Shown one piece after another: positions 1,497 to 56,512 of a DNA stretch of 64,000 bases; position 1 is the stretch's first letter, and every line of letters starts with the position of its first letter. Source of the stretch: Halichondria panicea (taxonomy: Eukaryota; Porifera; Demospongiae; Suberitida; Halichondriidae); the NCBI RefSeq assembly GCF_963675165.1, contig NC_087382.1:1302001-1366000 (forward strand). Reading direction: 5' to 3'. The notes under the pieces are model-generated. The model had not been told where the DNA came from and ran no database searches. It saw nothing but the letters and a program-made list of their open reading frames with translations. The position numbers and the translations under genes were made by a program.

Positions 1497-4400
1497 TTAC
1501 CTGGTTGATCCTGCCAGTAGTCATATGCTTGTCTCAAGCCATGCATGTCTAAGTATAAACGCTTCTATACTGTGAAACTGCGAATGGCTCATTAAATCAA
1601 TACATGGATAGTAAATACAGGCCCTCAGCTCCCTATATATATATACAAGTTTTAACTCATATCCTTTTGCCACAATGAATCAAGCAACAGCTAGGTTAGC
1701 TGAGCTACCATCGCAATCACTTCAGTTAGACGAGTTATGAGGAAAGTTGACGTACTGTACAACTGGAAAATTTGGTGATTATTTGGCGAATGCAATGCAA
1801 TACTATACAGTGACGTTGTATCCACCAGAAAATTTAAATTTGGCAGTTTTAAATTTGGCAATCTTCGGTAAATCGCCAAATTAAAACACCCATCAAATTT
1901 CCCAGTTATACATCCATAAGGAGTCTGCATTTTACAGGCCCAAGTTATGATTCAGTGTTAGTTTGTTACTGACAATCATAACAGAAGCCATAATGGTAAT
2001 TAAGTTATGATTCAGCTGTTACTGACAATCATAACAGAAGCCAACCAATATGTTGTGGTTGCAGTGCTTTGGAGTATAGCCCTGCAAAGATATGGAAAAC
2101 CACCGTAGCAGCAAGAGTGCATAAGAAGAGAAGAGTGTCGAACTACTGATACTTCTACACAAACACTGTGCACAAAAGTAACATGACTCGCACGTGATAA
2201 AGTATTGTAAATTTACTAGTAATCTCCTAGTAAATGTTAACCGTGACGTTTTTAGGGGTGTGGTAATCAAACAATTCTAGCTAGTTGTTCACGTTCAACG
2301 TTAAGAGCTTGTGGAACTGCTCACTGCACACTGATAGGAGACGATCTCTTCACAAAAATCATCTAAATAGAGACAATAGTCGAGTTTATCCTCTTCACTT
2401 GCACTCTTTACTCACTATTAACAACTTCTGTGCATTGCGCAATTATGCACAAACATTATCAATTGCGAGTTGCTCACATGCAATTGACAGGATGATACTT
2501 TGTGCACAGTGTTTGTGTAGAAGTATCAGTAGTTCGCTTCTTATGCACTCTTGATAGTATAGATTGTGGTCAAGGGCCTAAACCAGAGATCAGTATCTAC
2601 TACAAGTGGGGCACTTCACCAAAAGGTCAACTTTCTGTATGCCATAAACAAAACTGACCACAGTGCAATATGCCATATACAGGGTTTCATACAGAGAGGG
2701 GGGGGCGCCCTGGGATTTCCCCCCTAGAAATATGAAAAATTAATGATGTCATACCAAATTGTACAGTGATTCAGATAGATCTACATGTAGAATAATCATT
2801 ATATAATGATTATTCTACGTGTCACTGTATCAGTCAAATCAATTGAGAAAAAGCCTCTTACATACATCAGGAGTGCATACATGTATATCCAATCTAGCAC
2901 ATGGTACATTTCAAAAGGTCAGACAGGAGATTACATACCATAAGATCTCGATTTAAAGCGACAAATTACGAAGCCAGAGGTCGCATCTTTTAGAGGTTGA
3001 AAAATTATATTGAAGTCCTGATGTCGCATATTTAGAGGGTCGCATCTAATTGGAGGTAACTTTACAGAGTTTACTTGCCTCGATTTCAGGCCGTTTAAAA
3101 ACACTGATTTTCCAGTGGGCTACAATCGAGGCTAGGGAGTGGCTACATTTATCTCTATTTAGAACGCGACATTAAAAAATAATTGTCAACGCAGCTGTTG
3201 CTACTTTTAGAGGTCAGAAAATTGCTGAAGCTCCTGGGTGTCGCATATTTGGAGGGTCGCCTTAAATCGAGGTCTTACGGTACACAAATTAAATTGGATG
3301 TATACTATTACCCTTTGAAATTTAAACCTTACAACATAAGCAGAGCATGTACATAGTGGGACCATCGGCTCTGTACACACACTAGAGGTCAATTTGAGTA
3401 CCTTTTCTGCCAAAAAAATTTTTTTCGGGTAAGTTGAAGGTGTACAATGCAGTAAGAACTAGACTGAATAGTTTTAAGCACAAAAACCTCCAAATTGCAC
3501 CTTAGACAATCATTCTGCCAAATTTTAGACGGCGTACGACCGTCGTCATTTCCCCCCCCTTGGCTAAAAATCCTGTATGAAACCCTGATATATTGGTACT
3601 GCTATTCCTTTGATCTCAGAGGTCAAAAGGCTGTTTGCATTTGTATCTTCACCTTTCTTTTTATTCCCCAAATTTCTTTCAATTTTCCTGCAATAATTAC
3701 TGTTAGTGTGTTGTGTAAAAGTGTCTGTTTTGTACTGTATCAGTTCATGCTCAGCTTATTTTTCAACCACGTTTACCATGCAGATATCAAGACCAGTGTT
3801 GGACGGACTGCTGCTGATTGGGCCGTACAGTGTGGGCACTATGCCTTGGCTGACTATGTGGAGGCGTTCCGGCCTGGACCTAGAGGTGAGTTAACCATCA
3901 GCATATCTAGTGAGTTTCACAGCTAGTAGATCAGTGGCCTGGTTTCCTTGTGATATCATGCACAGTCTATATAATCAAGGTCATAACAATAATTATGACA
4001 GGGACTATTAGCATGTCTCCTCAGTACAATCGGGATACTACAGGAGTCTCTTTGGTATCCCTTTTTAACTATTATGTAGACCCTCTGTCCTCGTACCCAA
4101 CTCTGGAACAGCTGAGTCAGCTGGAATGTGACCAATGGCTTCAACTTGGTGTTCATTTGAGATTGGGCAATGACCAACTGGAAACCATAAAGAAGAGCCA
4201 ACATCCCACAGCAGCAACTCTCCAGGCAGCCAAAATCAAGAATATTGACATCCAGTGGAAGGATATTGTGGAAGCTCTAGTGAGCATTGGAGAGTACAAG
4301 TTGGCAGAGAGTGTGTGCATTCAGCAAGGTCAGCAAGTTGTTGTAATGATTCTTGTTTGTGAAATTTCGTTATGGTTGTACAAGTATGCAAAATGTATTA

Positions 4401-10400: not shown

Positions 10401-13400
10401 ACAGAAGAATTCTGAGCCTTTCTAATGTCAACATTCAGTCGGTCAATCCCAGACAGGAGGTGGTCCAGGCCCTTGAGACGTGGAGGAGTGAGACTGAGGG
10501 AACTTACAGCTGTCTGAAGGAGACTTTCAACAAGTACAGCGTCTTCACTGGGAGAAACCCTCTGGTAACTATAATAGTTTATCAATTAATACATGTCTCT
10601 ATTTCAAATTTCGTCATTAGACATTAAACTCAATATTTGGGGCGAGCGTAGCGAGCCTTAACTTAGTGACGGCGGTAGCTGTATGTATGTAATGGTACGT
10701 TGGTACGGCCTGATAGCCGGTTTTTACACACGCGGTCCTTACCAATTTCGTGTATTCCTCATGTATTCCTATTGTACAACTGGAGGCATAAGAAAAAGTT
10801 GCATAAAATGAATACTGACAACGAACGCAAACAAGAAAGACTTCGAATAAGGAGGGATCGAGAGAGACAAGCAAGAGCCCAAGAAACAGCTGAAGAGAAA
10901 GTAGTCAGGCTAGCCAAACGTAAACAACAAAGCCCTGTTCTTAAAACAGCTTTTCACAAACGTTTATGCTTATATCAGCACCTACAGTACTTTCGTTCCA
11001 TAAGTTCAAACAGGGTCTAACAACATGCATCAAAACACCTGTACTGCTAACACGCTCGCCCCATGACACGTTGTGTCACCAATAGTATTATATACACATA
11101 CAGGACCTCGTATATAGTGGTAATTAATTGTATAACTTGCTTTACTAGTTCCTCTTCCTTTTATGTACATACAGGACTTAGCTGGTGTGGCTCATGATTA
11201 TATTGATCCCTCGACTGTGTTTAGTATCAGTGGTGATGAGCAAATGGTGCGTTGTCCGTATAGCTGTGTACAAACTCTATGGTAAATTGATTCTTTAATT
11301 TGACTTGCTTCTTTGTATAATCAAGAGTATAATTATAATGGAGAGAGAGTATATCGAACGTAGGCATATTGTGCATCAGATGTATATGTGACTTCCTGTA
11401 TTTGTCATTGGCTTGTAATTTGCACACTGACCGATCCAAGCGTGCATGGGTGATTTAATCTACTTTCACCCACACTTGCAAGCGAGTGTGTACTGTACAG
11501 TAATTATTGTTTTCATTCTAGTACAGTGTAGCTTACATTCAAGAGGATCACTGAATTGTGAATTAATAAATATTGTATTACTCTTCACAGGATCACCAGA
11601 TACCCTCTACCCCTACCTTAGGTATGACTTCAGAACTCAATAGTTACTATCAGTATATGCATGACTATTATAATAGCGCTTACATGTAGTGTGTACCAAT
11701 AATATCAATCTTTTGTTCTCATGCAGCGTCAGGTGAACTCCGTATTGATAGAAATCAAAAGTCAACGATTAGAGAACACTATGATACTGTCTCTGTTGCG
11801 AAGACGCCATCATCAGGTTGTGCTGTTTCAACAACTGTAACACTGTTATTCACTGATTACTCTTATATAGATGAGGGGTCCCTGTCATCAGAAAGACTCC
11901 AATACTCAGCAGCTCCAGTCCAGAGATTAGGAGCTACATCAGCTGGTACTAGGAACAGTCAACTCCATAGAAGAGGTAAATTCACTGATGATCAGATAAA
12001 GTAACGTATGTATGTACCGTTATTTTCGTATATGGGGAAATTTTTGTATATTTCGTATTGTATAGAGCATCATACAAATTACAAACTTTTTCTACCCGGA
12101 ATACGTTCACCGTAACTATCCTGAGCTGTAAATACTAAATATTTTATTGGGCATTTCATCCAAAAATTTGCACCAACAAAAATTAACCGTTGTACGGTAT
12201 GTATAATTATAATTATTGTGCCATGTAATACTTTGTTGCCTTGAAGCCATTTGCTGCATGACTCAAGTGAATGTACCAAAGGAAGTCATATATTTCTGTA
12301 TGCCATAATAATTATTATAGTGCATGCAAAACTGACCACAGTGCAATAATAATGTCATAATTATAATTATTGGAACTGCTATTCCTTTGATCTCAGAGGT
12401 CAAAAGGCAACAATGGTTTAAATTGTTCACACCATTAATTACTTACTTAGGTTCTAGTGATTTGTCTGCTCTAAGGAATTACATTGTAGACACTCCAATC
12501 ACTGGACAACTGGAGTACCAAATGAAGTATGGAGATGCTCACATACAGGTAGGTATCATAGCTATAATTACTTCAATGTGCTAAAACTGCATGTCTATAT
12601 ATGAGTTTGCTAAGTCTAAAGGGTCCAAATCATTGCCGACGTGGCACAAATTTGGTGAATATGTGTCCTTGTACCCTAGTCCACTTACATTTTGTTGATT
12701 TGCCCGGATTAGGCTGTCTATTAGTGGGTCTAGTTACTATCGTTTCCGTCATATGCAGGATCCAGGAACTACCAGCCTCCATGAGTTGATGGTCAAGCAT
12801 GGAGTCACTAACGAGCAGTTGGATCGAGAGATTGAACAAGACGACCTTGCTCCAGTAGCTATGCACTTTGATAATGTGGAGCTCTACCTCAACCCACTGA
12901 AGTTGACTGACAATGAAAAAGCTGACGTGAAGAGAGACGCTTTTGTTAGTGGCAATCTAGTGGCAGTGATCAACTGTTTGTCAATCTGGAGGGGTCACGA
13001 AGAACCCAGCAAAGCAACCTTTAGAGCACTGATTAGGATCTTATTGGATCTGAGGAAGGAAGAGCTAGCTACCAGGATTTGTCAGTATTTGGTAAATTGT
13101 TATGTCAGCACGTAAAAATTATTGCACAGTTTTTATGGGCCGCTACATGTATACATGCAGTGTACGTACTGTACTCAGTGTGTTATAGGACGGGATACCG
13201 TACAGGGAGTATAATTTTCGTGCGGTAAAAAAATTAGAAACGCCTACGTTTTTGTGAGAAAAATTTCGTGTAGGCCAGCCTGCCCATAAAAATAACAAAT
13301 ACTTATACCCCACGAATATTACCCGCTATATACGGCAGTGAGGGTCAACAATAATTATATCTGGACTTTAATTGATTCTGATCGTCTTATTCTTCCTTTG

Positions 13401-16400
13401 GTACCTCCAATCCTCTGATATAGAGTAAAATCTTCTGGACAAATGTTTTAATTGACCGGACAATCTTCCTCTGGTGTTATACTGCATGTATCGTTAATGT
13501 TAACATGCACTAGCTCTTCTACTCATGTGGTGTACAGCAGTCAATGATTGTATAGTACATGCCAGGACTGGAGCACTCTTCTGCTCATGTGGTGTACAGC
13601 AGTCAATGATTGTATAGTACATGCCAGGACTGGAGCACTCTTCTGCTCATGTGGTGTACAGCAGTCAATGATTGTATAGTACATGCCAGGACTGGAGCAC
13701 TCTTCTGCTCATGTGGTGTACAGCAGTCAATGATTGTATAGTGCATGCCAGGACTGGAGCACTCTTCTGCTCATGTGGTGTACACCAGTCAATGATTGTA
13801 TAGTGCATGCCAGGACTGGAGCACTCTTCTGCTCATGTGGTGTACAGCAGTCAATGATTGTATAGTGCATGCCAGGACTGGAGCACTCTTCTGCTCATGT
13901 GGTGTACAGCAGTCAATGATTGTATAGTGCATGCCAGGACTGGAGCACTCTTCTGCTCATGTGGTGTACAGCAGTCAATGATTGTATAGTGCATGCCAGG
14001 ACTGGAGCACTCTTCTGCTCATGTGGTGTACAGCAGTCAATGATTGTATAGTGCATGCCAGGACTGGAGCACTCTTCTGCTCATGTGGTGTACAGCAGTC
14101 AATGATTGTATAGTGCATGCCAGGACTGGAGCACTCTTCTGCTCATGTGGTGTACAGCAGTCAATGATTGTATAGTGCATGCCAGGACTGGAGCACTCTT
14201 CTGCTCATGTGGTGTACAGCAGTCAATGATTGTATAGTGCATGCCAGGACTGGAGCACTCTTCTGCTCATGTGGTGTACAGCAATCAATGATTGTATAGT
14301 ACATGCCAGGACTGGAGCACTCTTCTGCTCGTGTGGTGTACAGCAGTCAATGATTGTATAGTGCATGCCAGGACTGGAGCACTCTTCTGCTGGTGTGGTG
14401 TACAGCAGTCAATGATTGTATAGTGCATGCCAGGACTGGAGCACTCTTCTGCTCGTGTGGTGTACAGCAGTCAATGATTGTATAGTGCATGCCAGGACTG
14501 GAGCACTCTTCTGCTCTTGTGGTGTACAGCAGTCAATGATTGTATAGTGCATGCCAGGACTGGAGCACTCTTCTGCTCATGTGGTGTACAGCAGTCAATG
14601 ATTGTATAGTGCATGCCAGGACTGGAGCACTCTTCTGCTCATGTGGTGTACAGCAGTCAATGATTGTATAGTGCATGCCAGGACTGGAGCACTCTTCTGC
14701 TCATGTGGTGTACAGCAGTCAATGATTGTATAGTCTTGCCAGGACTGGAGCACTCTTCTGCTCATGTGGTGTACAGCAGTCAATGATTGTATAGTGCATG
14801 CCAGGACTGGAGCACTCTTCTGCTCATGTGGTGTACAGCAGTCAATGATTGTATAGTCTTGCCAGGACTGGAGCACTCTTCTGCTCATGTGGTGTACAGC
14901 AGTCAATGATTGTATAGTACATGCCAGGACTGGAGCACTCTTCTGCTCATGTGGTGTACAGCAGTCAATGATTGTATAGTACATGCCAGGACTGGAGCAC
15001 TCTTCTACTCATGTGGTGTACAGCAGTCAATGATTGTATAGTACATGCCAGGACTGGAGCACTCTTCTGCTCATGTGGTGTACAGCAGTCAATGATTGTA
15101 TAGTACATGCCAGGACTGGAGCACTCTTCTGCTCATGTGGTGTACAGCAGTCAATGATTGTATAGTCTTGCCAGGACTGGAGCACTCTTCTGCTCATGTG
15201 GTGTACAGCAGTCAATGATTGTATAGTCTTGCCAGGACTGGAGCACTCTTCTGCTCATGTGGTGTACAGCAGTCAATGATTGTATAGTGCATGCCAGGAC
15301 TGGAGCACTCTTCTACTCATGTGGTGTACAGCAGTCAATGATTGTATAGTGCATGCCAGGACTGGAGCACTCTTCTGCTCATGTGGTGTACAGCAGTCAA
15401 TGATTGTATAGTACATGCCAGGACTGGAGCACTCTTCTGCTCATGTGGTGTACAGCAGTCAATGATTGTATAGTACATGCCAGGACTGGAGCACTCTTCT
15501 TTTCATGTGGTGTACACCAGTCAATGATTGTATAGTACATGCCAGGACTGGAGCACTCTTCTGCTCATGTGGTGTACACCAGTCAATGATTGTATAGTAC
15601 ATGCCAGGACTGGAGCACTCTTCTGCTCATGTACAGCAGTCAATGATTGTATAGTGCATGCCAGGACTGGAGCACTCTTCTGCTCATGTAGTGTACAGCA
15701 GTCAATGATTGTATAGTACATGCCAGGACTGGAGCACTCTTCTGCTCATGTGGTGTACAGCAGTCAATGATTGTATAGTACATGCCAGGACTGGAGCACT
15801 CTTCTGCTCATGTGGTGTACAGCAGTCAATGATTGTATAGTCATGCCAGGACTGGAGCACTGCATGAGATTACTTCTCTTCACACAGGCTGATGGTAACG
15901 GTCAAGTTTATACTCAAAGAGCTGATAAATCTGCTGATTTAAAACCACACATCATGTATGAGGGGTCCCTGTCATCAGAAAGTCTCCAACACTCAGCAGA
16001 TCCAGTCCATAGACTAGGAGCTACATCAGCTGATACTGAGGACAGTCAACTTCATACTAGAAGAGGTAAATTCACTGATGATCAGATAAAGTAACGTACG
16101 AATGTACCACAGCAGGTTATTTTCGTATGGGGGAAATTTTTTTGTATTGTATAGAGCATCATACAAAAATTAAAACTACGAAACTAGTTTACCCGGAATA
16201 TGTTTTACCGTAACTATCCTGAGCTAAATATTTTATTGGGCATTTCATACGAACAAAAATTAACCGTTATACAGAGTATATATATTGTGCCATGTAATAC
16301 TCTGTTGCCTTGAAGCCATTTGCTGCATGACTCAAGTGAATGTACCAAAGGAAGTCATATTTCTGTATGCCATGTATACAGAACTGACCACAGTGCAATA

Positions 16401-19400
16401 TGTCATATAATTATTGGCACTGCTATTCCTTTGATCTCTGAGGTCAAAAAGCAACAATTGTTCACGCCATTAATTACTTGCTTAGGTTCTAGTGATTTGT
16501 CTGCTCTAAGGAACATTGTAGACACTGCAATCACTGGACAACTGGAGCACCAAATGAAGTATGGAGATGCTCACATACAGGTACGTATCATAGCTATAAT
16601 TATATACTTCAATGTCTGCTAAAACTGATGTCTATATAAGTTTGCTAAGTCTTAAAGGGTCCAAACCATTTCCTTTATGTGCCACGTGGCAAAAATCGGG
16701 TGATTTAATAATGTGTACCCTTGTACCCTAGTCCACTTAAATGTTGTTGATTTGCCTGGATTGGGCTGTCTGTTAGTGGGTCTAGTTACTATGGTTTCCG
16801 CCATGTGTAGGATCCAGGGACTACCAGCCTCCATGAGTTGATGGTCAAGCAGGGAGTCACTGACGAGCAGTTGGATCAAAAGATTGCTCAAGATGACCTT
16901 ACTCTAGTAGCTATGCACTTTGATAATGTGGAGCTCTACCTCAACCCAATGAAGTTGACTGACAATGAAAAAGCTGGCGTGAAGAGAGACGCTTTTGTTA
17001 GTGGCAATCTAGTGGCAGTGATCAACTGTTTGTCAATCTGGAGGGGTCACGAACCCAGCGAAGCAACCTTCAGAGCACTGATTAGGATCTTATTGGATCT
17101 GAGGAAGGAAGAGATTGCTACCAGGATTTGTCAGTACTTGGTAAATTGTTATGTCAGCACATAAAAATTATTGCACAGTTTTATATAATTATGGGCCGCT
17201 GCATGTATACATGCAGTGTACGTACTGTACTGTGTTATAATTATGATGGGATATACTGTATTATATAGCGGATAATTTTCGTGGGGCAAAAAATTGGTTT
17301 ATCTGGAAAACAGTGATTTTCGTGAGCATAGATTTCGTTAACTTCATTGGATGCGTTACGGTAAGCCACGCCTACATTTTCATGAGGAACATTTTTATGT
17401 AGACCAGCTTGCCCGCAAAAATAACGCCACGAAAATTACCCGCTATATACGGCAGTGAGGGTCAACAATAATTATATCTGGACTTTAATTGGATTCCAAT
17501 TGTCTTATTCTTCCTTTGGTACCTTCAATCCTCTGATATACAGTAAAATCTTCTGGACGCATGTTTTAATTGACCGGACAATCTTCCTCTGGTGTTATAC
17601 TGCATGTATCGTTAATGTTAACATGCACTAGCTCTTCTGCTCATGTAGTGTACGCGCAGTCAATGATTGTATAGTACATGCCAGGACTGGAGCACTCTTC
17701 TGCTCATGTGGTGTACAGCATTCAATGATTGTATAGTACATGCCAGGACTGGAGCACTCTTCTGCTCATGTGGTGTACAGCAGTCAATGATTGTATAGTA
17801 CATGCCAGGACTGGAGCACTCTTCTGCTCATGTGGTGTACAGCAGTCAATGATTGTATAGTCATGCCAGGACTGGAGCACTCTTCTGCTCATGTGGTGTA
17901 CATGCAGTCAATGATTGTATAGTACATGCCAGGACTGGAGCACTCTTCTGCTCATGTGGTGTACAGCAGTCAATGATTGTATAGTACATGCCAGGACTGG
18001 AGCACTCTTCTGCTCATGTGGTGTACACCAGTCAATGATTGTATAGTACATGCCAGGACTGGAGCACTCTTCTGCTCATGTGGTGTACACCAGTCAATGA
18101 TTGTATAGTACATGCCAGGACTGGAGCACTCTTCTGCTCATGTGGTGTACACCAGTCAATGATTGTATAGTACATGCCAGGACTGGAGCACTCTTCTGCT
18201 CATGTGGTGTACAGCAGTCAATGATTGTATAGTCATGCCAGGACTGGAGCACTCTTCTGCTCATGTGGTGTACAGCAGTCAATGATTGTATAGTACATGC
18301 CAGGACTGGAGCACTCTTCTGCTCATGTGGTGTACAGCAGTCAATGATTGTATAGTACATGCCAGGACTGGAGCACTCTTCTGCTCATGTGGTGTACAGC
18401 AGTCAATGATTGTATAGTACATGCCAGGACTGGAGCACTCTTCTGCTCATGTGGTGTACAGCAGTCAAATTGTATAGTCATGCCAGGACTGGAGCACTCT
18501 TCTGCTCATGTGGTGTACAGCAGTCAATGATTGTATAGTACATGCCAGGACTGGAGCACTCTTCTGCTCATGTGGTGTACAGCAGTCAATGATTGTATAG
18601 TACATGCCAGGACTGGAGCACTCTTCTGCTCATGTGGTGTACACCAGTCAATGATTGTATAGTACATGCCAGGACTGGAGCACTCTTCTGCTCATGTGGT
18701 GTACACCAGTCAATGATTGTATAGTACATGCCAGGACTGGAGCACTCTTCTGCTCATGTGGTGTACAGCAGTCAATGATTGTATAGTCATGCCAGGACTG
18801 GAGCACTCTTCTGCTCATGTGGTGTACAGCAGTCAATGATTGTATAGTACATGCCAGGACTGGAGCACTCTTCTGCTCATGTGGTGTACAGCAGTCAATG
18901 ATTGTATAGTACATGCCAGGACTGGAGCACTCTTCTGCTCATGTGGTGTACATGCAGTCAATGATTGTATAGTACATGCCAGGACTGGAGCACTCTTCTG
19001 CTCATGTGGTGTACAGCAGTCAATGATTGTATAGTACATGCCAGGACTGGAGCACTCTTCTGCTCATGTGGTGTACACCAGTCAATGATTGTATAGTACA
19101 TGCCAGGACTGGAGCACTCTTCTGCTCATGTGGTGTACACCAGTCAATGATTGTATAGTACATGCCAGGACTGGAGCACTCTTCTGCTCATGTGGTGTAC
19201 ACCAGTCAATGATTGTATAGTACATGCCAGGACTGGAGCACTCTTCTGCTCATGTGGTGTACAGCAGTCAATGATTGTATAGTCATGCCAGGACTGGAGC
19301 ACTCTTCTGCTCATGTGGTGTACAGCAGTCAATGATTGTATAGTACATGCCAGGACTGGAGCACTCTTCTGCTCATGTGGTGTACAGCAGTCAATGATTG

Positions 19401-22400
19401 TATAGTACATGCCAGGACTGGAGCACTCTTCTGCTCATGTGGTGTACAGCAGTCAATGATTGTATAGTACATGCCAGGACTGGAGCACTCTTCTGCTCAT
19501 GTGGTGTACAGCAGTCAAATTGTATAGTCATGCCAGGACTGGAGCACTCTTCTGCTCATGTGGTGTACAGCAGTCAATGATTGTATAGTACATGCCAGGA
19601 CTGGAGCACTCTTCTGCTCATGTGGTGTACAGCAGTCAATGATTGTATAGTACATGCCAGGACTGGAGCACTCTTCTGCTCATGTGGTGTACACCAGTCA
19701 ATGATTGTATAGTACATGCCAGGACTGGAGCACTCTTCTGCTCATGTGGTGTACACCAGTCAATGATTGTATAGTACATGCCAGGACTGGAGCACTCTTC
19801 TGCTCATGTGGTGTACAGCAGTCAATGATTGTATAGTCATGCCAGGACTGGAGCACTCTTCTGCTCATGTGGTGTACAGCAGTCAATGATTGTATAGTAC
19901 ATGCCAGGACTGGAGCACTCTTCTGCTCATGTGGTGTACAGCAGTCAATGATTGTATAGTACATGCCAGGACTGGAGCACTCTTCTGCTCATGTGGTGTA
20001 CAGCAGTCAATGATTGTATAGTACATGCCAGGACTGGAGCACTCTTCTGCTCATGTGGTGTACACCAGCCAATGATTGTATAGTACATGCCAGGACTGGA
20101 GCACTCTTCTGCTCATGTGGTGTACAGCAGTCAATGATTGTATAGTCATGCCAGGACTGGAGCACTCTTCTGCTCATGTGGTGTACAGCAGTCAATGATT
20201 GTATAGTCATGCCAGGACTGGAGCACTCTTCTGCTCATGTGGTGTACAGCAGTCAATGATTGTATAGTGCATGCCAGGACTGGAGCACTCTTCTACTCAT
20301 GTGGTGTACAGCAGTCAATGATTGTATAGTACATGCCAGGACTGGAGCACTCTTCTGCTCATGTGGTGTACAGCAGTCAATGATTGTATAGTCATGCCAG
20401 GACTGGAGCACTCTTCTGCTCATGTGGTGTACAGCAGTCAATGATTGTATAGTCATGCCAGGACTGGAGCACTCTTCTGCTCATGTGGTGTACACCAGTC
20501 AATGATTGTATAGTACATGCCAGGACTGGAGCACTCTTCTGCTCATGTGGTGTACAGCAGTCAATGATTGTATAGTCATGCCAGGACTGGAGCACTCTTC
20601 TGCTCATGTGGTGTACACCAGTCAATGATTGTATAGTACATGCCAGGACTGGAGCACTCTTCTGCTCATGTGGTGTACAGCAGTCAATGATTGTATAGTA
20701 CATGCCAGGACTGGAGCACTCTTCTGCTCATGTGGTGTACAGCAGTCAATGATTGTATAGTACATGCCAGGACTGGAGCACTCTTCTGCTCATGTGGTGT
20801 ACAGCATGCAGTCAATGATTGTATAGTACATGCCAGGACTGGAGCACTCTTCTGCTCATGTGGTGTACAGCATGCAGTCAATGATTGTATAGTCATGCCA
20901 GGACTGGAGCACTCTTCTGCTCATGTGGTGTACAGCAGTCAATGATTGTATAGTCATGCCAGGACTGGAGCACTCTTCTGCTCATGTGGTGTACAGCAGT
21001 CAATGATTGTATAGTACATGCCAGGACTGGAGCACTCTTCTGCTCATGTGGTGTACACCAGTCAATGATTGTATAGTCATGCCAGGACTGGAGCACTCTT
21101 CTGCTCATGTGGTGTACAGCAGTCAATGATTGTATAGTGCATGCCAGGACTGGAGCACTCTTCTGCTCATGTGGTGTACACCAGTCAATGATTGTATAGT
21201 ACATGCCAGGACTGGAGCACTCTTCTGCTCATGTACAGCAGTCAATGATTGTATAGTGCATGCCAGGACTGGAGCACTCTTCTGCTCATGTACAGCAGTC
21301 AATGATTGTATAGTCATGCCAGGACTGGAGCACTCTTCTGCTCATGTGGTGTACACCAGTCAATGATTGTATAGTACATGCCAGGACTGGAGCACTCTTC
21401 TGCTCATGTGGTGTACAGCAGTCAATGATTGTATAGTACATGCCAGGACTGGAGCACTCTTCTGCTCATGTGGTGTACACCAGTCAATGATTGTATAGTC
21501 ATGCCAGGACTGGAGCACTCTTCTGCTCATGTGGTGTACAGCAGTCAATGATTGTATAGTACATGCCAGGACTGGAGCACTCTTCTGCTCATGTAGTGTA
21601 CAGCAGTCAATGATTGTATAGTACATGCCAGGACTGGAGCACTCTTCTGCTCATGTGGTGTACAGCAGTCAATGATTGTATAGTACATGCCAGGACTGGA
21701 GCACTCTTCTGCTCATGTGGTGTACAGCAGTCAATGATTGTATAGTACATGCCAGGACTGGAGCACTCTTCTGCTCATGTGGTGTACAGCAGTCAATGAT
21801 TGTATAGTACATGCCAGGACTGGAGCACTCTTCTTTTCATGTGGTGTACACCAGTCAATGATTGTATAGTACATGCCAGGACTGGAGCACTCTTCTGCTC
21901 ATGTGGTGTACACCAGTCAATGATTGTATAGTACATGCCAGGACTGGAGCACTCTTCTGCTCATGTACAGCAGTCAATGATTGTATAGTGCATGCCAGGA
22001 CTGGAGCACTCTTCTGCTCATGTAGTGTACAGCAGTCAATGATTGTATAGTACATGCCAGGACTGGAGCACTCTTCTGCTCATGTGGTGTACAGCAGTCA
22101 ATGATTGTATAGTACATGCCAGGACTGGAGCACTCTTCTGCTCATGTGGTGTACAGCAGTCAATGATTGTATAGTCATGCCAGGACTGGAGCACTGCATG
22201 AGATTACTTCTCTTCACACAGGCTGATGGTAACGGTCAAGTTTATACTCAAAGAGCTGATAAATCTGCTGATTTAAAACCACACATCATGTATGAGGGGT
22301 CCCTGTCATCAGAAAGTCTCCAACACTCAGCAGATCCAGTCCATAGACTAGGAGCTACATCAGCTGATACTGAGGACAGTCAACTTCATACTAGAAGAGG

Positions 22401-25400
22401 TAAATTCACTGATGATCAGATAAAGTAACGTACGAATGTACCACAGCAGGTTATTTTCGTATGGGGGAAATTTTTTTGTATTGTATAGAGCATCATACAA
22501 AAATTAAAACTACGAAACTAGTTTACCCGGAATATGTTTTACCGTAACTATCCTGAGCTAAATATTTTATTGGGCATTTCATACGAACAAAAATTAACCG
22601 TTATACAGAGTATATATATTGTGCCATGTAATACTCTGTTGCCTTGAAGCCATTTGCTGCATGACTCAAGTGAATGTACCAAAGGAAGTCATATTTCTGT
22701 ATGCCATGTATACAGAACTGACCACAGTGCAATATGTCATATAATTATTGGCACTGCTATTCCTTTGATCTCTGAGGTCAAAAAGCAACAATTGTTCACG
22801 CCATTAATTACTTGCTTAGGTTCTAGTGATTTGTCTGCTCTAAGGAACATTGTAGACACTGCAATCACTGGACAACTGGAGCACCAAATGAAGTATGGAG
22901 ATGCTCACATACAGGTACGTATCATAGCTATAATTATATACTTCAATGTCTGCTAAAACTGATGTCTATATAAGTTTGCTAAGTCTTAAAGGGTCCAAAC
23001 CATTTCCTTTATGTGCCACGTGGCAAAAATCGGGTGATTTAATAATGTGTACCCTTGTACCCTAGTCCACTTAAATGTTGTTGATTTGCCTGGATTGGGC
23101 TGTCTGTTAGTGGGTCTAGTTACTATGGTTTCCGCCATGTGTAGGATCCAGGGACTACCAGCCTCCATGAGTTGATGGTCAAGCAGGGAGTCACTGACGA
23201 GCAGTTGGATCAAAAGATTGCTCAAGATGACCTTACTCTAGTAGCTATGCACTTTGATAATGTGGAGCTCTACCTCAACCCAATGAAGTTGACTGACAAT
23301 GAAAAAGCTGGCGTGAAGAGAGACGCTTTTGTTAGTGGCAATCTAGTGGCAGTGATCAACTGTTTGTCAATCTGGAGGGGTCACGAACCCAGCGAAGCAA
23401 CCTTCAGAGCACTGATTAGGATCTTATTGGATCTGAGGAAGGAAGAGATTGCTACCAGGATTTGTCAGTACTTGGTAAATTGTTATGTCAGCACATAAAA
23501 ATTATTGCACAGTTTTATATAATTATGGGCCGCTGCATGTATACATGCAGTGTACGTACTGTACTGTGTTATAATTATGATGGGATATACTGTATTATAT
23601 AGCGGATAATTTTCGTGGGGCAAAAAATTGGTTTATCTGGAAAACAGTGATTTTCGTGAGCATAGATTTCGTTAACTTCATTGGATGCGTTACGGTAAGC
23701 CACGCCTACATTTTCATGAGGAACATTTTTATGTAGACCAGCTTGCCCGCAAAAATAACGCCACGAAAATTACCCGCTATATACGGCAGTGAGGGTCAAC
23801 AATAATTATATCTGGACTTTAATTGCATTCCAATTGTCTTATTCTTCCTTTGGTACCTTCAATCCTCTGATATACAGTAAAATCTTCTGGACGCATGTTT
23901 TAATTGACCGGACAATCTTCCTCTGGTGTTATACTGCATGTATCGTTAATGTTAACATGCACTAGCTCTTCTGCTCATGTAGTGTACGCGCAGTCAATGA
24001 TTGTATAGTACATGCCAGGACTGGAGCACTCTTCTGCTCATGTGGTGTACAGCAGTCAATGATTGTATAGTACATGCCAGGACTGGAGCACTCTTCTGCT
24101 CATGTGGTGTACAGCAGTCAATGATTGTATAGTACATGCCAGGACTGGAGCACTCTTCTGCTCATGTGGTGTACACCAGTCAATGATTGTATAGTACATG
24201 CCAGGACTGGAGCACTCTTCTGCTCATGTGGTGTACACCAGTCAATGATTGTATAGTACATGCCAGGACTGGAGCACTCTTCTGCTCATGTGGTGTACAG
24301 CAGTCAATGATTGTATAGTACATGCCAGGACTGGAGCACTCTTCTGCTCATGTGGTGTACAGCATGCAGTCAATGATTGTATAGTCAGTCATGCCAGGAC
24401 TGGAGCACTCTTCTGCTCATGTGGTGTACAGCAGTCAATGATTGTATAGTACATGCCAGGACTGGAGCACTCTTCTGCTCATGTGGTGTACAGCAGTCAA
24501 TGATTGTATAGTCATGCCAGGACTGGAGCACTCTTCTGCTCATGTGGTGTACAGCAGTCAATGATTGTATAGTCATGCCAGGACTGGAGCACTCTTCTGC
24601 TCATGTGGTGTACAGCAGTCAATGATTGTATAGTCATGCCAGGACTGGAGCACTCTTCTGCTCATGTGGTGTACAGCAGTCAATGATTGTATAGTACATG
24701 CCAGGACTGGAGCACTCTTCTGCTCATGTGGTGTACAGCAGTCAATGATTGTATAGTGCATGCCAGGACTGGAGCACTCTTCTGCTCATGTGGTGTACAG
24801 CAGTCAATGATTGTATAGTGCATGCCAGGACTGGAGCACTCTTCTGCTCATGTGGTGTACAGCAGTCAATGATTGTATAGTGCATGCCAGGACTGGAGCA
24901 CTCTTCTGCTCATGTGGTGTACAGCAGTCAATGATTGTATAGTGCATGCCAGGACTGGAGCACTCTTCTGCTCATGTGGTGTACAGCAGTCAATGATTGT
25001 ATAGTGCATGCCAGGACTGGAGCACTCTTCTGCTCATGTGGTGTACAGCAGTCAATGATTGTATAGTGCATGCCAGGACTGGAGCACTCTTCTGCTCATG
25101 TGGTGTACAGCAGTCAATGATTGTATAGTGCATGCCAGGACTGGAGCACTCTTCTGCTCATGTGGTGTACAGCAGTCAATGATTGTATAGTGCATGCCAG
25201 GACTGGAGCACTCTTCTGCTCATGTGGTGTACAGCAGTCAATGATTGTATAGTCATGCCAGGACTGGAGCACTCTTCTGCTCATGTGGTGTACAGCAGTC
25301 AATGATTGTATAGTGCATGCCAGGACTGGAGCACTCTTCTGCTCATGTGGTGTACAGCAGTCAATGATTGTATAGTCATGCCAGGACTGGAGCACTCTTC

Positions 25401-28400
25401 TGCTCATGTGGTGTACAGCAGTCAATGATTGTATAGTGCATGCCAGGACTGGAGCACTCTTCTGCTCATGTGGTGTACAGCAGTCAATGATTGTATAGTG
25501 CATGCCAGGACTGGAGCACTCTTCTGCTCATGTGGTGTACAGCAGTCAATGATTGTATAGTGCATGCCAGGACTGGAGCACTCTTCTGCTCATGTGGTGT
25601 ACAGCAGTCAATGATTGTATAGTGCATGCCAGGACTGGAGCACTCTTCTGCTCATGTTGTGTACAGCAGTCAATGATTGTATAGTCATGCCAGGACTGGA
25701 GCACTCTTCTGCTCATGTGGTGTACAGCAGTCAATGATTGTATAGTGCATGCCAGGACTGGAGCACTCTTCTGCTCATGTGGTGTACAGCAGTCAATGAT
25801 TGTATAGTCATGCCAGGACTGGAGCACTCTTCTGCTCATGTGGTGTACAGCAGTCAATGATTGTATAGTGCATGCCAGGACTGGAGCACTCTTCTGCTCA
25901 TGTGGTGTACAGCAGTCAATGATTGTATAGTGCATGCCAGGACTGGAGCACTCTTCTGCTCATGTGGTGTACAGCAGTCAATGATTGTATAGTGCATGCC
26001 AGGACTGGAGCACTCTTCTGCTCATGTGGTGTACAGCAGTCAATGATTGTATAGTGCATGCCAGGACTGGAGCACTCTTCTGCTCATGTGGTGTACAGCA
26101 GTCAATGATTGTATAGTCATGCCAGGACTGGAGCACTCTTCTGCTCATGTGGTGTACAGCAGTCAATGATTGTATAGTCATGCCAGGACTGGAGCACTCT
26201 TCTGCTCATGTGGTGTACAGCAGTCAATGATTGTATAGTACATGCCAGGACTGGAGCACTCTTCTGCTCATGTAGTGTACAGCAGTCAATGATTGTATAG
26301 TACATGCCAGGACTGGAGCAATTTATTTTGCTTTCATGTGGTGAATACTTTACTAGTATACTACTGCTAATCATGTATATACAGGACCTAGCTGGTGTGG
26401 CTCATCATGATATTGATCCCTCTGTGTTTAGTATCAGGGTAAAATTACAACATTAACCTTAATTAAGCTGTCTGTATACATTGCAATAATCACAGTTCGA
26501 AGTTGAAACTGTGCTGTACTATATCTCTTCACAGACATTGAGAGAAGAGCACCAGATACCTTGTACCTCTACCCCAGGTAAAGACTTCAGATATTTTAAT
26601 ATGACTATCAATAGTTTAATCTTCATACTGTATTGCCAGCAACGAGTATCATCCCCTCATGGATAACGATGCATGCATATGCATGCCTCTAACAACTGAA
26701 GCATGCAGAACTCATAGCTTGTGTGTCTGGCTAGCGGTAGATTGATGTTGTGTAAATATTCATGTCACTAATATCAATGCTCACTTTCTCCATAGGACCA
26801 CCCGCTAATCAAGTCACGCTCCAAGAACTAATAAAACGATACAGTCTGACTGACGAGCAACTCGACAGTGAAATAGAGTACTCTGATACTCCCAAACTGG
26901 CCTTATGTTTCGATAATGTGGAACTTTATTCGAGTGCAATGGAACTAACTTCTGCTGAAGAAGTTGATGTGAGAGAATCGCGTCATGTAGATGGCAATCA
27001 AACAGCCATGATGAAGTGCTTACAAATCTGGAAAGAACATAATCCTTCTCAAGCAACTTACAGAGCTCTACTAGATATCGTACTGGAATTGGGGAAAGGA
27101 GACACAGCTCATCAAATCTGTCAACAATTGACCCAACGTAAGAGATACCGGGCTATCTTGGGTTTTACATAATAATAATCTGAGAACAATGATACATACA
27201 TAAATCTACCAAGCTTCAAAGCAGTGCACCTAACTCATATATGCACATGTGAGACTGATAGAAAAAGATTAAGAGTAAGTAAGAGTTTCTATAGGCTTCT
27301 AGTCATGTTTTCTTGGATTTAATTCGTGGATTTGCAAAATAATGCTTTGTTCTCGAGTTATGCCTAGTTTTGCTTACTTGGAATGCCATTGCAGCCTTTT
27401 CAGAAGAACACGTAGCCAAACTTGTTTACCGAGTGTTGCTACTCTACTTAGTAGTTAGCCCTGCACTAGAATACTAGCTATTGGTATGTAGCTGCAAGAG
27501 TGAGAAGAGAGCTTGAACTTTGGTATCGATCGTTTTTAACAACAATCGTGGTCCTTCATTACCCACTCTTTGAGTTTGCATGCAGCATGCAAATTAAAAA
27601 ATGTTCATCATGTGTATAAAAATTAATAGTAGCTTTATATTATGTAGCTTTGGCATCTCCACCGAGGCATCAGTACCTGCGGTGCTTTCATTTTATTTAA
27701 GCGGGTCAGGTGGCATATACGGCACCGGATGTAATTTTGAAGGGGGAGAGGTTCGGGAAAATAACAAAAATTAGGGCATTTCCACATCCGGTGCACATCC
27801 GGTGCCGTATATAAGCCACCTGATCCATTTGAGCTTGCTCGCTGGCAGAATATCTTATGTACAGGTGACATTGGAGAAGCTGTTGTGGAAGTCACTAACA
27901 AATCTAACGAGTTCAGCAATTTTGGAATTAAAATTACTGTCCTGGAAAATTCGCTACCTAGAGGTATCGATACATGTGTCCTACACATATCCTTTGAGTT
28001 ATCCACTGACTTTGAGATTCCCGCTAACTCTGAACCAGTCAGTTCAATTTATCATGTGAAATGTGAGCCCAAAGTGCAGTTCAAGAAACCTGTCGTCCTG
28101 GAAATACAACACTGTGCGAGTTTAAGCTCTGACCATCAACAAAGGCTTGTTTTTGCTCGAGCAACAGATCAGAGCAAAACGTTTGAGATCCTGGAGGGTG
28201 GTCACTTTCCTATTGGTGAACGCTATGGATCCATCCAGCTTACTCGTTTCAGTCGCCTCGGTGTTTTTATTCGTAAAGTATTTGGCTTTCCAATCGAGAA
28301 AATATACAGTGCATTGCTCTTCAGAAATAACTTGCACTGTGATGTAATTGACACAAAATGTGTGATATGTCAGGATCTAGACACTCATATAAAGGTAGGT

Positions 28401-31400
28401 TTCAATATTTTCCACAACCGGTCAATAATACGCAGTGCATGTTAAGTAACATGATAATGAGTTTTCGTTATTACAGGTAATTAGAGAGGCGTTAGAAAGA
28501 GATGGATTCACAAAAGAAATGGATCTAGATCAAATTCAATTTGAAAATGCAGTAGAGATGGAACTGCATTCAGAGAATCCAGAGCTTTGGACTGTTACTA
28601 GAGTAACATCCACTGTGAGTTATAGTTTGCTACATAGCTAGTATCCACGGTAATGTTAATAATATTATACACACTCTTGGGGAGGACAAAACAATGGGGA
28701 CATGCTGGTGTGACTAATATGCACTTTCCATGTTGTAGCTGTCCAGAGATCGTATTGAAGGATACTCAAGAGTGTTCGATTCTAATAGTCGACGCGGAGT
28801 TATTCCAGCCATCTATTATAGATTTAAGCTGAAGGAAAAAAATATTTCTGAATCAGTAAACTTTCTGCTGACGAAAACCGATTTAGACGAAGAGAGCCAT
28901 CATCTAATTTTACATATTGACTGTAAGTAACCTGAATCTAAATTGTATGCGAAATCTTGTCTTTCCTCTGGGGATGATAGTAGTTTACAGTATCTATATA
29001 TTTTAGATCCCATTTGAGGGTATTTAGCAGGGAACTATGAGCTATAGTACCGGTACTATAGATTGCTCTGGGCTACAAACTACAACATTATACATTGTAT
29101 TGTCATTTACAAGAAGATACACATAAAAATTATTGTAGCTAGATGCATTGTCTAGTAACATATATAGAATGGAAGAGAGAAGCTCTAGAGTATTTTTGGC
29201 TTTATTCGAGAGTAGTAGGAGCCGCTCGTTTCTTGGGTAGTGTGCTGTACTTTTTTGCTGCAAGGTTGCATGGGGGAGGAGCTGGATGTATGGAAGTGCT
29301 GGAATTCTAGCTTTGGCTTCTTCCTTTGGCTTTGTTCAAGAGTAGTATAGGAACCGCTCGTTTGTTGCAAATTCTAGCTTAGGTGTCTTCCTTTCGCTAT
29401 GTGAGAGTAGTACGAGCCAATCGTTTCTTGGAAAGTGTTGTTTGCTACAAAACTGGGGGAGGAGCTGCCGTTTTGTGGGTGGAGCGGTCCAGCACTATAA
29501 TCTGAGGTGGAGGAACAGGGTTAGCCTCGAGACCAGGCCGATTAATCGGCCTGGATTCGAGGCTAGAACAGGGTTGACTTGAATAGAGACCACAGATTTA
29601 GTAGAGACACAGAGATGCCAACTTCAGATACAATTAAAGAAATGATGCAGTTGCTAGGTTGGCTGGTTGTTGCTAAGCTAGTGCATTTCTAGTAGCCAAT
29701 AGGGTTTGGGATCTAAATCTAACATGTTCTAACTATATTATATAACCTAGTACACTGGAATGCACAAACCGGGCCTGATTCATCCTTCGCATGCACAAAC
29801 AGGTCCTGTATAATACAGATGAAAATGACATCATTTTCCCTTTAATATAGGCGTATCTTTGTAGTTTAACAACTCTCCTCTTTTTCCTCAGTACCTCAGA
29901 CTCTGGGGACGAGTGACTCAGCCACACAGAGAGGTCAGTTCGTGTATACAGTGCATGGAGTGTTTGTGTCTGTAGCTATACTCATGTATTCATTGGATCC
30001 TCAAATACGATATTATACAGCTACCTTAATTTGTACAGTAACATAAATTTAAGCCTCTGTCAGGATATTCCTCTATAGTGAGTTATTAGTCAATTATCAA
30101 AGCTAATGACCTTGAAGATCGACCCTCTTGACGTCATGAGCAATAAGTTGCTTATCCTTACATCCTATTTTTCTTGCTCCACAATGACAATGCACGTAGC
30201 CCGCAGGCTGCTATAGTGAGTTAGGTGCATCACTTTGAAGCTATATACTGGGCCTCAGTCTATATTATATGGAGTGAAGCTAACCTTCAGTCATATAGGC
30301 GTGGAACACAGCGGCTTCAAGTAGAATGAGCTGATGTCTCTAACTCACAAATGAAGTCCTTTTATTGCAAGCTGATATTGACAGTTTTGAAAGAATTCTC
30401 CGCATAACACTTTTGTTCAGCACGATGCATGATACTTTCACTAGAAAAACATCTTAGGTTAATTGCATGACATGCAATTGTTGTGTGTATATACTTATAC
30501 ACAATCGTTGATTCTTATGTGTGCATAGGATCAGGGCATCCAAGAAACCTTACAAGACAGTCGTCCTCCATTCCAATTGTTCTGACTGAAGATGATATTC
30601 GTTCAATTTGTGAGAAGCTGAAGAGTGCAAGCAAAGATTGGTTCAATTTGGGACTGGATCTTGGAGTGAAATTTACTGATTTGAAGGATATCGAAGATGA
30701 ATACCGCAGTAATAAGCGCTGCCTAACAGAGATGGTAGGCAAGTGTCTTGAAGTCACTGATCCAGAACATCCGATGACATGGCCTTACATATGTGAATGC
30801 CTGAGGAGTCCTACTGTTGAGCGTAACGATGTAGCCGAGGAGATTGAAGGTAAAGTGCCTAGTAATATACTCTGTAGTTTTAATTATTCCGTTACCACTG
30901 TGATACCTATGAGGAGGATATACACCCATAATTATATCCTATGTTAAACGTGTTCTCCGAGGTGTATGTACCCACGGTAGCCTCGATTCCAGGCCGAGTT
31001 GTTTCTAGCTAGGCCGATAACTAGTATTTTTCAACATTGTTCTATTAAAAAAAATCGGCCTGGGACCGAGGCTAGTAACCACGGTAGCAGAATAGCTGAC
31101 AGTTTGAAACTTCTCATTTGTGCCAATTTTTTTCGTCAAGGTCAGCCTGTTATATATTTTTCCCATCATTATTCTCAATGCGAGAGTATACCTATTTTCC
31201 TACTATACCATATGCACCTTAATGTAAGGTAGCGTAATTCTAGATATTCAAGGCCTATAATTATAGTCCCACAGCTAGGGCACCCTCCCCTAGCAAAAAT
31301 CCAATACACAATGCATGTATACTGCAAAAAGAGTGAGACTATAATTATACCAGATTTTGCAGCCCTAGTTCAGCAACACGTCATGTCCTAGTCAGAACTA

Positions 31401-33856: not shown

Positions 33857-34136
33857 TAGCTAGTACAGACGAACTCCATGGACCTACATGCACTAACTAC
33901 TCCAACTATTCCTAGTATATAGACGAACTCCATGGACCTACACTAACTACTCCAACTATTCCTAGTATATAGACGAACTCCATGGACCTACACTAACTAC
34001 TCCAACTATTCCTAGTATATAGACGAACTCCATGGACCTACACTAACTACTCCAACTATTCCTAGTATATAGACGAACTCCATGGACCTACACTAACTAC
34101 TCCAACTATTCCTAGTATAGTCGAACTCCATGGACG
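33857..34136 (+). repeat. Minisatellite, 50-bp unit, about 5 copies
   Basis: AGACGAACTCCATGGACCTA starts at 33921, 33971, 34021 and 34071 with exact 50-bp spacing. The first and last copies are imperfect (extra TGCA in copy 1, shortened end). Confidence 0.92.
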
Positions 34137-41499: not shown

Positions 41500-44400
41500 G
41501 TTAGTGCATGACACCACTGTTGTTTCACTGTTTATGTCAGCTATTAATATCAGTTGGCATGGTTACAGACACTTCACGGCTATTGTGTATCGTATATTTA
41601 CCACAACATTATCACATGCACACCCAAACACTAACTAATCAATGATGGCTGCACTCATCTTATCTCCCATAGTGACGACCTTGCTAAACAACTCTTCTGG
41701 GCTAGTAGTGGTGGCCGTGACCAAGAAGTGCTTGAGCTGCTACAGAGAGAAGCTCCACCCAACAACAGTGACTACTACACTAGAGAGCAGTATGGAAGGA
41801 CTCCACTACACAGGGCATGTATTAACAGCCATCTCTGCAATGCAGAACTACTCATCAAGTTTGGGGCCATTGTAGCTGCTACAAATAACTTTGGCAGTAC
41901 CCCCTTACATGATGCATGTTTCTACAACAAGAAGGCCACTGCTAAGCTGTTACTGGAGCACCACTGTCCCACAGGTGAGCCTGGGTGTTAGTTCAGCTGT
42001 GTCAGTAGGTGTCTGTCATCTTGTCCAGGTGTGTGGCAGTGACTGCCATTGTAGCTAGCAAAGCTTCACAGTAGGTACATTTGAGAAAAGTCATTGAATT
42101 GAACTAATGATTAATACATGGTGGCCACTATGTACAAACACTTTTTAGCATGTTTCATGGTCTGGTAGGTACAGGGTTATCCCATTATAGAAATACACAG
42201 TACAGACTTGTAAATTTACAATCTTATACTGTTGATGACGTGTACGTACTCTATCTATTATATGCAAGTCATAATTATTGTAGGCATTGGCGAATTTATA
42301 TTACTAATTTTTGGGGGAGATTTGCCAAAGCATCCAAAATATTTTGTCATTGGTTTAACAATTGTTTATATGTTGCGTCAATGTCTGGGTGAGTGCTATA
42401 GAACACAGTAAACTACATGCATGTACTGTCAGTTCATGTGCTCCTGTTCAACCAACCATGCAGATAGCAAGGACAAGTGGGGACGTACTGCTGCTGATGT
42501 GGCCAGAGTGAAGGGGCACCATGCCTTGGCTGACTATGTGGAGAGGTTCCAGCCTGGACCTAGAGGTGAGTTGGCCATCAGCTGTTGTACACAGTAGTCA
42601 GTAGGTATCTAGTGAATTGCATGGTCAGTATAGTACAGCTAGATCAGTGGTTTCCATGTTATGCCGTTCATGCACCTTCCATATGTGTTAAATCTCATGC
42701 AATTAATTTAAGTGATCAGTTTCTTGACAGTAATTTGTACATAGCCCTATCATCACTCTACAGTCTTGTGTACAGTGTATGACTAGACAATGACAATGCC
42801 TCAGGGACTTATTTGTATGCCTTTCTCAGTACACTCCATAATTATACTGCATCAGTTCCTTTGGCTTCTAAATTTCATTGATACCTCCTTTTCTAACTAT
42901 TATGTAGATCCTCTGTCCTCGTACCCAACACTGGAACAGCTGAGTCAGCTGGAATGTGATCAATGGCTTCAACTTGGTGTTCGCTTCGCATTGGGCAATG
43001 ACCAACTGGAAACCATAAAGAAGAGCCAACATCCCACAGCAGCAACTCTCCAGGCAGCCAAAATCAAGAATATTGACATGCAGTGGAAGGATATTGTGGA
43101 AGCTCTAGTGAGCATTGGAGAGTACAAGTTGGCAGAGAGTGTGTGCACTCAGCAAGGTCAGTAAATGATTGCTCCTGTTAAACTACTAACATTGGTAACA
43201 TTGTTTGGGAAACTACTCCGTACTACAAGCTTGTGTAGAATAATAACTCTTTTGCTATCCGTCTGTATTCACCTATGCACTGTACAATGCAAGTAAACTT
43301 AACAACTGTATCCCGTCTTAATTAATTGTGCTAACTGCAGGGGAAGGTGAGAGTGCTCTGTCAGTGAGTGTATTCTATGGCTGGCTGGACTGTGTCAAGC
43401 GTCTTGTGGAAACTGTGGACCTCAATCCAAAAGGTGAAAATGGTACCTCAAGAAAAAGCATATTCTGAGCCAAACTAATGTTGAGTAATAAGGTCATGCA
43501 GTTACTCACACTATTATCATTGTAATCTCAACAATCACTTTAAAGTACAATTCTGGGGTTTGCAGGTACAGTCAACAAGGCTGGTGACACCCCACTCTCT
43601 CTGGCCTGTGCTAATGGCCACTTGGACACAGTCAAGTATCTTGTGAACAAGCATCGTTGTGATCCAGGTACAGTCAACAAGGCTGGTGACACCCCACTCT
43701 CTCTGGCCTGTGCTAATGGTCACTGGGACACAGTCAAGTGCCTTGTGAACGAGCATCATTGTGATCCTAGAAGTAAGCTATCATTGTATGTACGTACATG
43801 TGTATCACACCAACTATAGCTTCATGCATGAATGTGGAATGTTGTGGTATACCTAATGCTATAATTATATTACCACGGAATACAAACGCAAACCAATGCA
43901 TGTGTGCATGTACAGGTACAGTCAACAACGCTGGTGACACTCCACTCTCTCTGGCCTACAAAGGTGGACACTGGGATATGGTCAAGTATCTTGCCATCAC
44001 TCATCACTGTGACACAACAAGTAATTCCAATATTTTTTCCGCGGTTGTGAATGACCTATTTGTAATTATAATTATGCTCTTTATGGATTCTACAGAATTG
44101 TGCAATAGAATTTACTTTTATTGTCGGTTTTTAATTTTACAATCATGCTGCACAGCATATTGATCTCATGCGATATACTGGGACTGAGTATCAAGCTTAA
44201 AACATTGGGGAGTGTTAATTTTGGTGACCCGCACCATGATTCACCAATCACCACATTGACCTGTTATAAGGTACAGCCTATAGCCTGTAGCTTGGTACTG
44301 TGTATGAAATATCAGGAGCGTATAGCAGGTCTATATCTAATAGTGAGGATGGGACAGATTGAGGATTGAGGAGAAAGTGCCACTTTCTGGATCTCAGACA

Positions 44401-55885: not shown

Positions 55886-56404
55886 GTTCTCTCCAATACT
55901 ATAAGATTACAAGCTAATCCGGCAGTGTCAGAATAGTGCTATTGCTTCTTCTATATACTGTATATCATCTATAGAGTGGAATAAGATAGCGGTCACCAGC
56001 AATTGAAATTATGAGGCTCAAATTCTTATCAGTTTCATTACACATGCATAGTTTGCACAGTTATAACTTACCTAATCGATTTCCCTTTTCAGCTTACAAG
56101 ATCCAAACACAGTCTCACATGCACGTGTGAATACAGTAGTGGAGTATAGAGGTAGGACTATATATTAGGCCAAAGGGTATAGTATCACTGCATGCAGTAG
56201 AGCTGTCATCAGATACAAGTCCAAAGCACACACAGAAAATTCCTAATAGGATTACATGTATAGAGATGTTGTTATAGTTCAGACAACCCGATTAGTAGCT
56301 GCTTCCCAAGGGAGAAGTGCATGTATACAGTGTAATACGTTTACATGCTTATAGTATACATACTATATAGATCTACGACCTGTGTTTTTAAGCACACTCC
56401 CATG

Positions 56405-56512
56405 CATATTTCCCTACAATCTGCTATATTTCCTTCCAATCTGCCGTATTTCCTTACAATCTGCCATATTTCCTTACAATCTGCTATATTTCCCTACAAT
56501 CTGCCATATTCC
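56405..56512 (+). repeat. 20-bp tandem repeat, about 5-6 copies
   Basis: Units of the form ATTTCCTTACAATCTGCCAT recur at 20-bp spacing with C/T changes. No coding meaning; periodic frames here are artefacts. The surrounding 55886-57405 interval shows upstream sequence of the 54545-55885 gene and no supported exon. Confidence 0.85.

Follow-up and report, generated by a model that had tools for sequence, protein, structure and literature searches.

Gene 1 of the demosponge Halichondria panicea carries three Death-domain modules, each followed by an intron filled with an array of one 62-bp unit. On balance, the whole is best explained by expansion of the unit, an exchange between exon types A' and A, and a recent array-to-array copying of a frame-neutral module. 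The gene lies in a window of 64,000 nucleotides (C6:1302001-1366000). This was taken from the H. panicea genome (131.5 Mb, 39 contigs), which we take to be a long-read, chromosome-level assembly. Briefly, the 5' part of gene 1 bears ankyrin repeats; the gene also encodes a Roc domain and a ZU5 domain and includes several Death-like exons. The features are listed in Table 1.

Table 1. Predicted features of gene 1, numbered from the first base of the window.
Feature	Position	Strand	Remarks
N-terminal Death-like domain	4046-4354		Pfam 17.0 bits, below cut-off
Large exon with the final ankyrin repeat, the Roc GTPase-like domain and the region after it	8303 to about 10564-10585	+	Pfam Roc; open through GRNPL
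Linker exon (DLAGVAHD...), phase 0	11175..11246	+	AG/GT borders; matching linker in annotated paralogs P0009, P0122, P0123
Module 1 exon A (A type)	11727..11975	+	A type also in P0122, P0123
Exon B of module 1	12397..12548	+	Inner acceptor gives start 12451
Death exon D1, module 1	12759..13091	+	Pfam Death 15.6 bits, below cut-off
Array A1, 38 copies of the 62-bp unit	13514..15860	+	Within intron 13092-15887
Exon A of module 2	15888..16065	+	A' type to 15957, A type from ~16003
Exon B (short form), module 2	16486..16580	+	
Death exon D, module 2 (D2)	16811..17140	+	Pfam 18.2 bits, below cut-off; predicted Death-superfamily fold
Array A2, 74 units	17632..22194	+	Within intron 17141-22221
Exon A of module 3	22222..22399	+	
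Exon B (short form), module 3	22820..22914	+	Equals module 2 coordinates + 6334
Death exon D, module 3	23145..23474	+	Identical to module 2 D
Array A3, 38 units	23966..26320	+	Within intron 23475-26384
Second linker exon, phase 0, 3' of A3	26385..26438	+	Array-linker-D4 order also at C8 locus L039
Short exon x4	26535..26577	+	
Death exon D4, different type	26796..27142	+	Pfam Death 23.9 bits, above cut-off; 3' end is a putative donor
ZU5 domain	27822..28394	+	Pfam ZU5 29.0 bits; splice link to D4 inferred
Last Death-like domain	30528..30851	+	Pfam 16.4 bits, below cut-off

The identity of the domains was assessed using Pfam. For the Death domain (PF00531), the curated cut-off is 22.6 bits. D4 and the D exon of gene 2, in the same window, score above it (24.3 bits for gene 2). 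D1, D2, the last domain and the N-terminal domain score below it. D2 is 78% identical to the gene 2 D exon, and the predicted structure has the helical fold of the Death superfamily. A sequence search of the PDB with the D alignment gave one match, spanning 32 residues of a designed PPR protein (E 6.1e-6), which we set aside as a chance helix match. The large exon matches the Roc-type GTPase model PF08477 (29.1 bits against a cut-off of 27, E 1.3e-6). Other P-loop models, NB-ARC (18.0 bits) and nSTAND (14.8 bits), fell under their own cut-offs on this exon. NACHT was not among the Pfam models listed there at E up to 0.1, so that the exon does not show the NACHT-type NTPase of a bona fide NLR. 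No leucine-rich repeats were listed in the eight pieces scanned with Pfam. No annotated protein of gene 1 was present among the 17 proteins compared; P0131, considered for this role, is another protein, one that carries Ig domains.

All three D exons of modules 1 to 3 end TTG/GTAAAT, and each array-bearing intron follows such an exon with the same phase-0 donor. The module exons (A, 178 bp; short B, 95 bp; D, 330 bp) sum to 603 bp, with phase 0 in and phase 0 out and no stop. The original prediction that the modules are phase-neutral is thus borne out. As read from the predicted exons, gene 1 contains an intragenic domain-module repeat, in which this frame-neutral unit has two near-identical tandem copies, and the tail of the gene reads through 829 residues without a stop. 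Exon B leaves one usable choice of acceptor, the longer acceptor of module 1 being mutated in modules 2 and 3. We had suspected from this loss that both modules were frame-broken. This was dropped, as the acceptor implied by the annotated paralog P0123 restores an open frame.

A single 62-bp family spans positions 13514-26320, arranged as tandem head-to-tail units in many copies, as expected of a minisatellite. Arrays of about 38, 73 and 38 copies had been predicted; cutting into units gave 38, 74 and 38. From the coordinates, the arrays make up 81-90% of their host introns (2796, 5081 and 2910 bp). They differ in composition. Unit types A, C and D are abundant in A2, and type B is abundant in A1 and A3. 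The first unit of A2 equals the first unit of A3 and the last eight units of A2 equal the last eight of A1. A1 and A3 have an exact stretch of 498 bp in common, a ready substrate for misalignment. Within A2, a 17-unit block is exactly duplicated (1050-bp period from 17862, 1091 bp exact). This is an indirect sign of array instability, seen in one assembly.

We examined where else the unit occurs. A three-unit query of the genome gave at least 74 matches at E up to 0.001: at least 69 at this locus, at least 3 in an array on C8 and at least 2 in introns on C5. None lies outside the locus and the corresponding introns of family members, all six first-look candidates having been scored, and there was no sign of a dispersed element. 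Homologous introns hold 7 units in L039 (C8), about 1 each in L040 and L041 (C5), a 26-bp part of the unit in L042, and none in L043, L044 or L045. From match coordinates, these introns measure ~1364 bp in L040, ~869 bp in L041 and ~517 bp in L042. We also surveyed D exons, scoring 40 of 53 candidates and examining downstream sequence for 18 of the 36 matches outside the window. At ten further D-exon loci, with ~1.8 kb read downstream, the full unit was never found (0/10) and three had a 19-bp match. Because homologous introns hold seven, about one, a partial or no unit, the arrays grew out of family intron sequence. They are a local expansion of ordinary intron sequence: as the comparison shows, a 62-bp piece common to some ankyrin-Roc-Death members has expanded at this locus. 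A protein-level search of other assemblies for an array reading frame, covering 2910 candidates, gave nothing at E up to 0.001.

The relatives show the arrangement that surrounds the unit. The Roc exon has 631 related proteins at E up to 0.001; among the 120 listed are proteins of H. panicea that share both the linker and the D exon. Two annotated ankyrin-Roc-Death proteins, P0122 (LOC135335877) and P0123 (LOC135335830), have the full order linker-A-B-D-A'-D4. The same order occurs at L040 and L041, where about one unit sits in the D-A' intron. Unlike gene 1, relatives of the P0122/P0123 type have one A/B/D module and no long array. In other annotated paralogs, such as P0009, the linker is joined directly to D.

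Modules 2 and 3 differ by one mismatch in 1771 bp. Beyond this stretch they stay exactly identical for 509 bp on the left side and 89 bp on the right, giving near-identical tracts of ~2.37 kb each. Module spacing is about 6.3 kb, most of it minisatellite. Since identity stops within arrays on either side, the endpoints of the module 3 copy fall in arrays, which fits an exchange between arrays. The interiors of A1, A2 and A3 differ. Hence, A2 is not simply the present A3 joined to the present A1. Such a join had been suggested by blastn (13514-19998 against 19856-26343, 98.1%) and was rejected, the unit maps agreeing at their ends only. A split of A2 into a left part like A3 and a right part like A1 gave p = 0.0015 for the whole unit map, owing to the end units. 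With these removed the split was unsupported (p = 1.0), and the interior was A3-like overall (48.6 log units). A tandem copy ending in arrays, followed by array turnover, fits these data; gene conversion or a join of haplotypes in the assembly fits less well.

Module 2 has a different history. Its exon A starts as A' and becomes A between 15957 and ~16003. Between 16003 and 16108, all sites that tell A from A' and match either are of A type. There are two exceptions outside this run: 16000, just before it, is of A' type, and 15908 is of A type although it lies in the A' stretch, where the two types barely align. As the switch falls inside exon A, module 2 carries an exon-exon junction rather than an array junction. 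The A' part is 99.0% identical to the C5 paralog L040. The intron preceding the array is 95.4% identical to L040 but 87.7% to module 1. For the D exon, the nearest sequence is that of module 1 (94.0%). The junction and the segments closest to L040 rule out a plain copy of module 1. Module 2 thus reads as an older mosaic whose parts perhaps stem from paralogous genes.

Modules have also multiplied in relatives that lack such arrays. Gene 2 contains three ankyrin-exon blocks of ~1.34 kb, which agree at 98.2% across 2782 alignment columns; here TRF found no minisatellite, only pairs of 102-bp ankyrin exons. On C14, 1.69 kb separates two D exons, and this interval holds no tandem repeat. At the protein level, P0121 reads as three pairs of Death-like domains, and its contig had no 62-bp array among the genome matches of the three-unit query. 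Arrays are therefore unnecessary for module gain, and we count these cases against our preferred explanation. The family appears prone to module gain, with arrays as one route at one locus. The original prediction had cast the arrays as a generator of Death-domain copy number. That idea is supported for the youngest copy, module 3, which ends in arrays. It does not extend to the series as a whole or to a dedicated generator, given the exon-exon origin of module 2 and the array-free gains in relatives. Array-linked gain is supported for one of the two steps, because module 3 is array-bounded and module 2 derives from an exon junction.

These observations bear on other explanations for module 3. 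The arrays could be bystanders, an ordinary tandem duplication having landed in arrays that fill most of the introns. Duplication of ankyrin and Death modules in array-free relatives agrees with this, as does the large share of the introns taken up by arrays, in which endpoints would often fall. However, both endpoints lie in arrays with long exact stretches in common, such as that of A1 and A3, and of the 40 scored D-exon matches, three fall within 11 kb of one another only at the array-bearing locus (n=1). We consider a passive role for the repeats unlikely. Gene conversion would instead start from two older modules, one of modules 2 and 3 having overwritten the other with ends in the arrays, and no module would have been gained recently. 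The strongly differing array interiors beside a near-identical module tract resemble a conversion tract, and no trace of an A3/A1 hybrid emerged from the test of the interior. Yet conversion requires an earlier, unseen duplication, and fast array turnover, of the sort evident in A2, yields the same picture; we judge conversion distinctly unlikely. Alternatively, module 3 may be unreal, two haplotypes of a single-module allele having been set in tandem by the assembly. Two joined alleles could give both the near-identity of modules 2 and 3 and the counts of 38, 74 and 38 units. One would expect two haplotypes to show more differences than one in 1771 positions, and the locus is inside a contig of 7.59 Mb. 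We regard this artefact as improbable.

A separate question, compatible with any of these origins, is whether modules 2 and 3 are used in the protein. If they were skipped or decaying, their number would be without effect. The lost exon B acceptor, the sub-threshold Pfam score of D2 and the direct passage from linker to D in P0009-like paralogs all point this way. So does exon A, which between modules 1 and 2 differs as much as the introns (9.8% and 10.0%); we count this against our preferred explanation. Differences are smaller in D (5.2%) and short B (2.1%). Hence, constraint is apparent in B and D but not in A. For D exons, dN/dS was 0.56 for module 1 against module 2 and ranged from 0.40 to 1.01 across all ten pairs compared; the eight pairs involving module 2 gave 0.44-1.01, which also suits disuse. 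For exon A, dN/dS was 1.32 on 12 changes. Overall, constraint is weak to moderate. Conversely, with the P0123-implied acceptor all exons are open in frame, exon indels between modules 1 and 2 are all multiples of three (3/3, compared with 7/24 in introns), and a Death-superfamily fold is predicted. Disuse of both modules is a minority reading, to which we give some weight.

Our preferred explanation, which combines unit expansion, an exon exchange and array-mediated copying, can be set out as follows. Besides the expansion of the unit, an older A'/A exchange, perhaps between paralogous genes, would have produced a second frame-neutral module with an array-bearing intron; the junction itself is visible in exon A. 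Much later, a misaligned exchange between the array after a module and the array before it may have created module 3 and the new array between. With every event of this kind, one linker and Death domain would be gained or lost and the frame kept, presuming inclusion in the mRNA. Because the phases match, the protein would not be broken by module gain or loss. The two ~2.37-kb near-identical tracts would make further gain or loss likely, and their identity alone could drive it. Module number therefore probably varies in the species, and Death-domain number is a good candidate for variation between individuals, with polymorphism predicted from the sequence. Public nanopore reads of another individual (SRR15711136; PMC8994243) are mostly short, the read N50 being 2.7 kb and the longest read 39.7 kb. 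How signalling assemblies form is expected to depend on Death-domain number. From the biology of Death folds, additional domains would alter the number of partners or the size of the assembly. A bolder proposal is that the arrays are a standing recombination platform that raises, through misaligned exchange, the rate of module gain and loss in individuals, giving individual-specific valency to a cell-death or immune scaffold and a heritable source of the individual immune repertoires described in this species. We regard this as speculative and rather doubtful.

The nearest known kind of system is the human LPA kringle IV type 2 (KIV-2) repeat. This is a 5.5-kb unit of two exons (PMC4378929), polymorphic from 1 to over 40 copies, for which duplication and conversion among copies are proposed. 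Both cases involve a multi-exon protein module in one gene, with nearly identical copies in kilobase-size tandem units. In contrast to KIV-2, gene 1 has two near-identical copies and one diverged copy, its spacing is mostly minisatellite, and the domain is Death rather than kringle; LPA is polymorphic, whereas gene 1 was read from one assembly. Minisatellites that change gene structure are described in young paralogs of human segmental duplications (PMC2812944), and there too the repeats lie inside genes. In that report they are of ~30 bp, with a mean of 4 copies, sit in exons or at exon borders and themselves alter coding or splicing. The gene 1 arrays have 38-74 units of 62 bp, are intronic and flank whole exon modules. 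A study of NLR genes in sponges (PMC12909245) concerns NACHT genes with an architecture other than that of gene 1. By title, minisatellite-spaced Death modules in a sponge did not appear among the matches listed from the open-licence literature, which leaves their absence unproven. Individual-specific expression of immune receptors is reported for H. panicea, and the main cause suggested by the authors is genotype (PMC8242945). Gene 1 is not linked there to those repertoires.

A gene in which Death-domain number can change in frame would let one ask if valency varies among wild individuals of an early-branching animal. In addition, homologous introns with about 1, 7 and 38-74 units provide, within one genome, a readable series for the birth of a minisatellite.

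In gene 1 and at the C8 paralog locus (L039), the 62-bp array is followed by the linker, the short exon x and D4, a Death exon of a different type. Conversely, the C5 paralogs (L040–L042) have the order unit, A' (an exon related to module exon A), D4. The differing orders represent a further exon swap adjoining the 62-bp unit.

The ankyrin exons of gene 2 are another recent module expansion. They form three tandem blocks of ~1.34 kb each, 98.2% alike over 2782 alignment columns (99.2–99.7% in 380-bp samples), with no minisatellite. At the C14 locus (L045), a linker-like exon stands ahead of each of two D exons; the D exons are separated by 1.69 kb, and the stretch between them contains no tandem repeat. 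Two Death-like domain types occur as three tandem pairs in residues 45–713 of the annotated H. panicea family protein P0121 (LOC135335853).

Long open frames were also noted. Judging from our reading of the translations, these may encode repeat-rich, secreted or membrane-like proteins. A duplicated segment (89%) accompanies them.

Coordinates of features (window positions unless a contig is named)
Feature	Position	Strand
Array-linker-x-D4, gene 1	26321-27257	
Other short tandem repeats, with 50-bp, 20-bp and 14-bp AT-rich units	33867-34135, 56405-56510, 57466-58367	
Ankyrin blocks, gene 2	43569-47682	
Long open frames	54545-63727	minus
Duplicated segment	55165-55953, 63007-63788	
L045	C14:1634000-1643900
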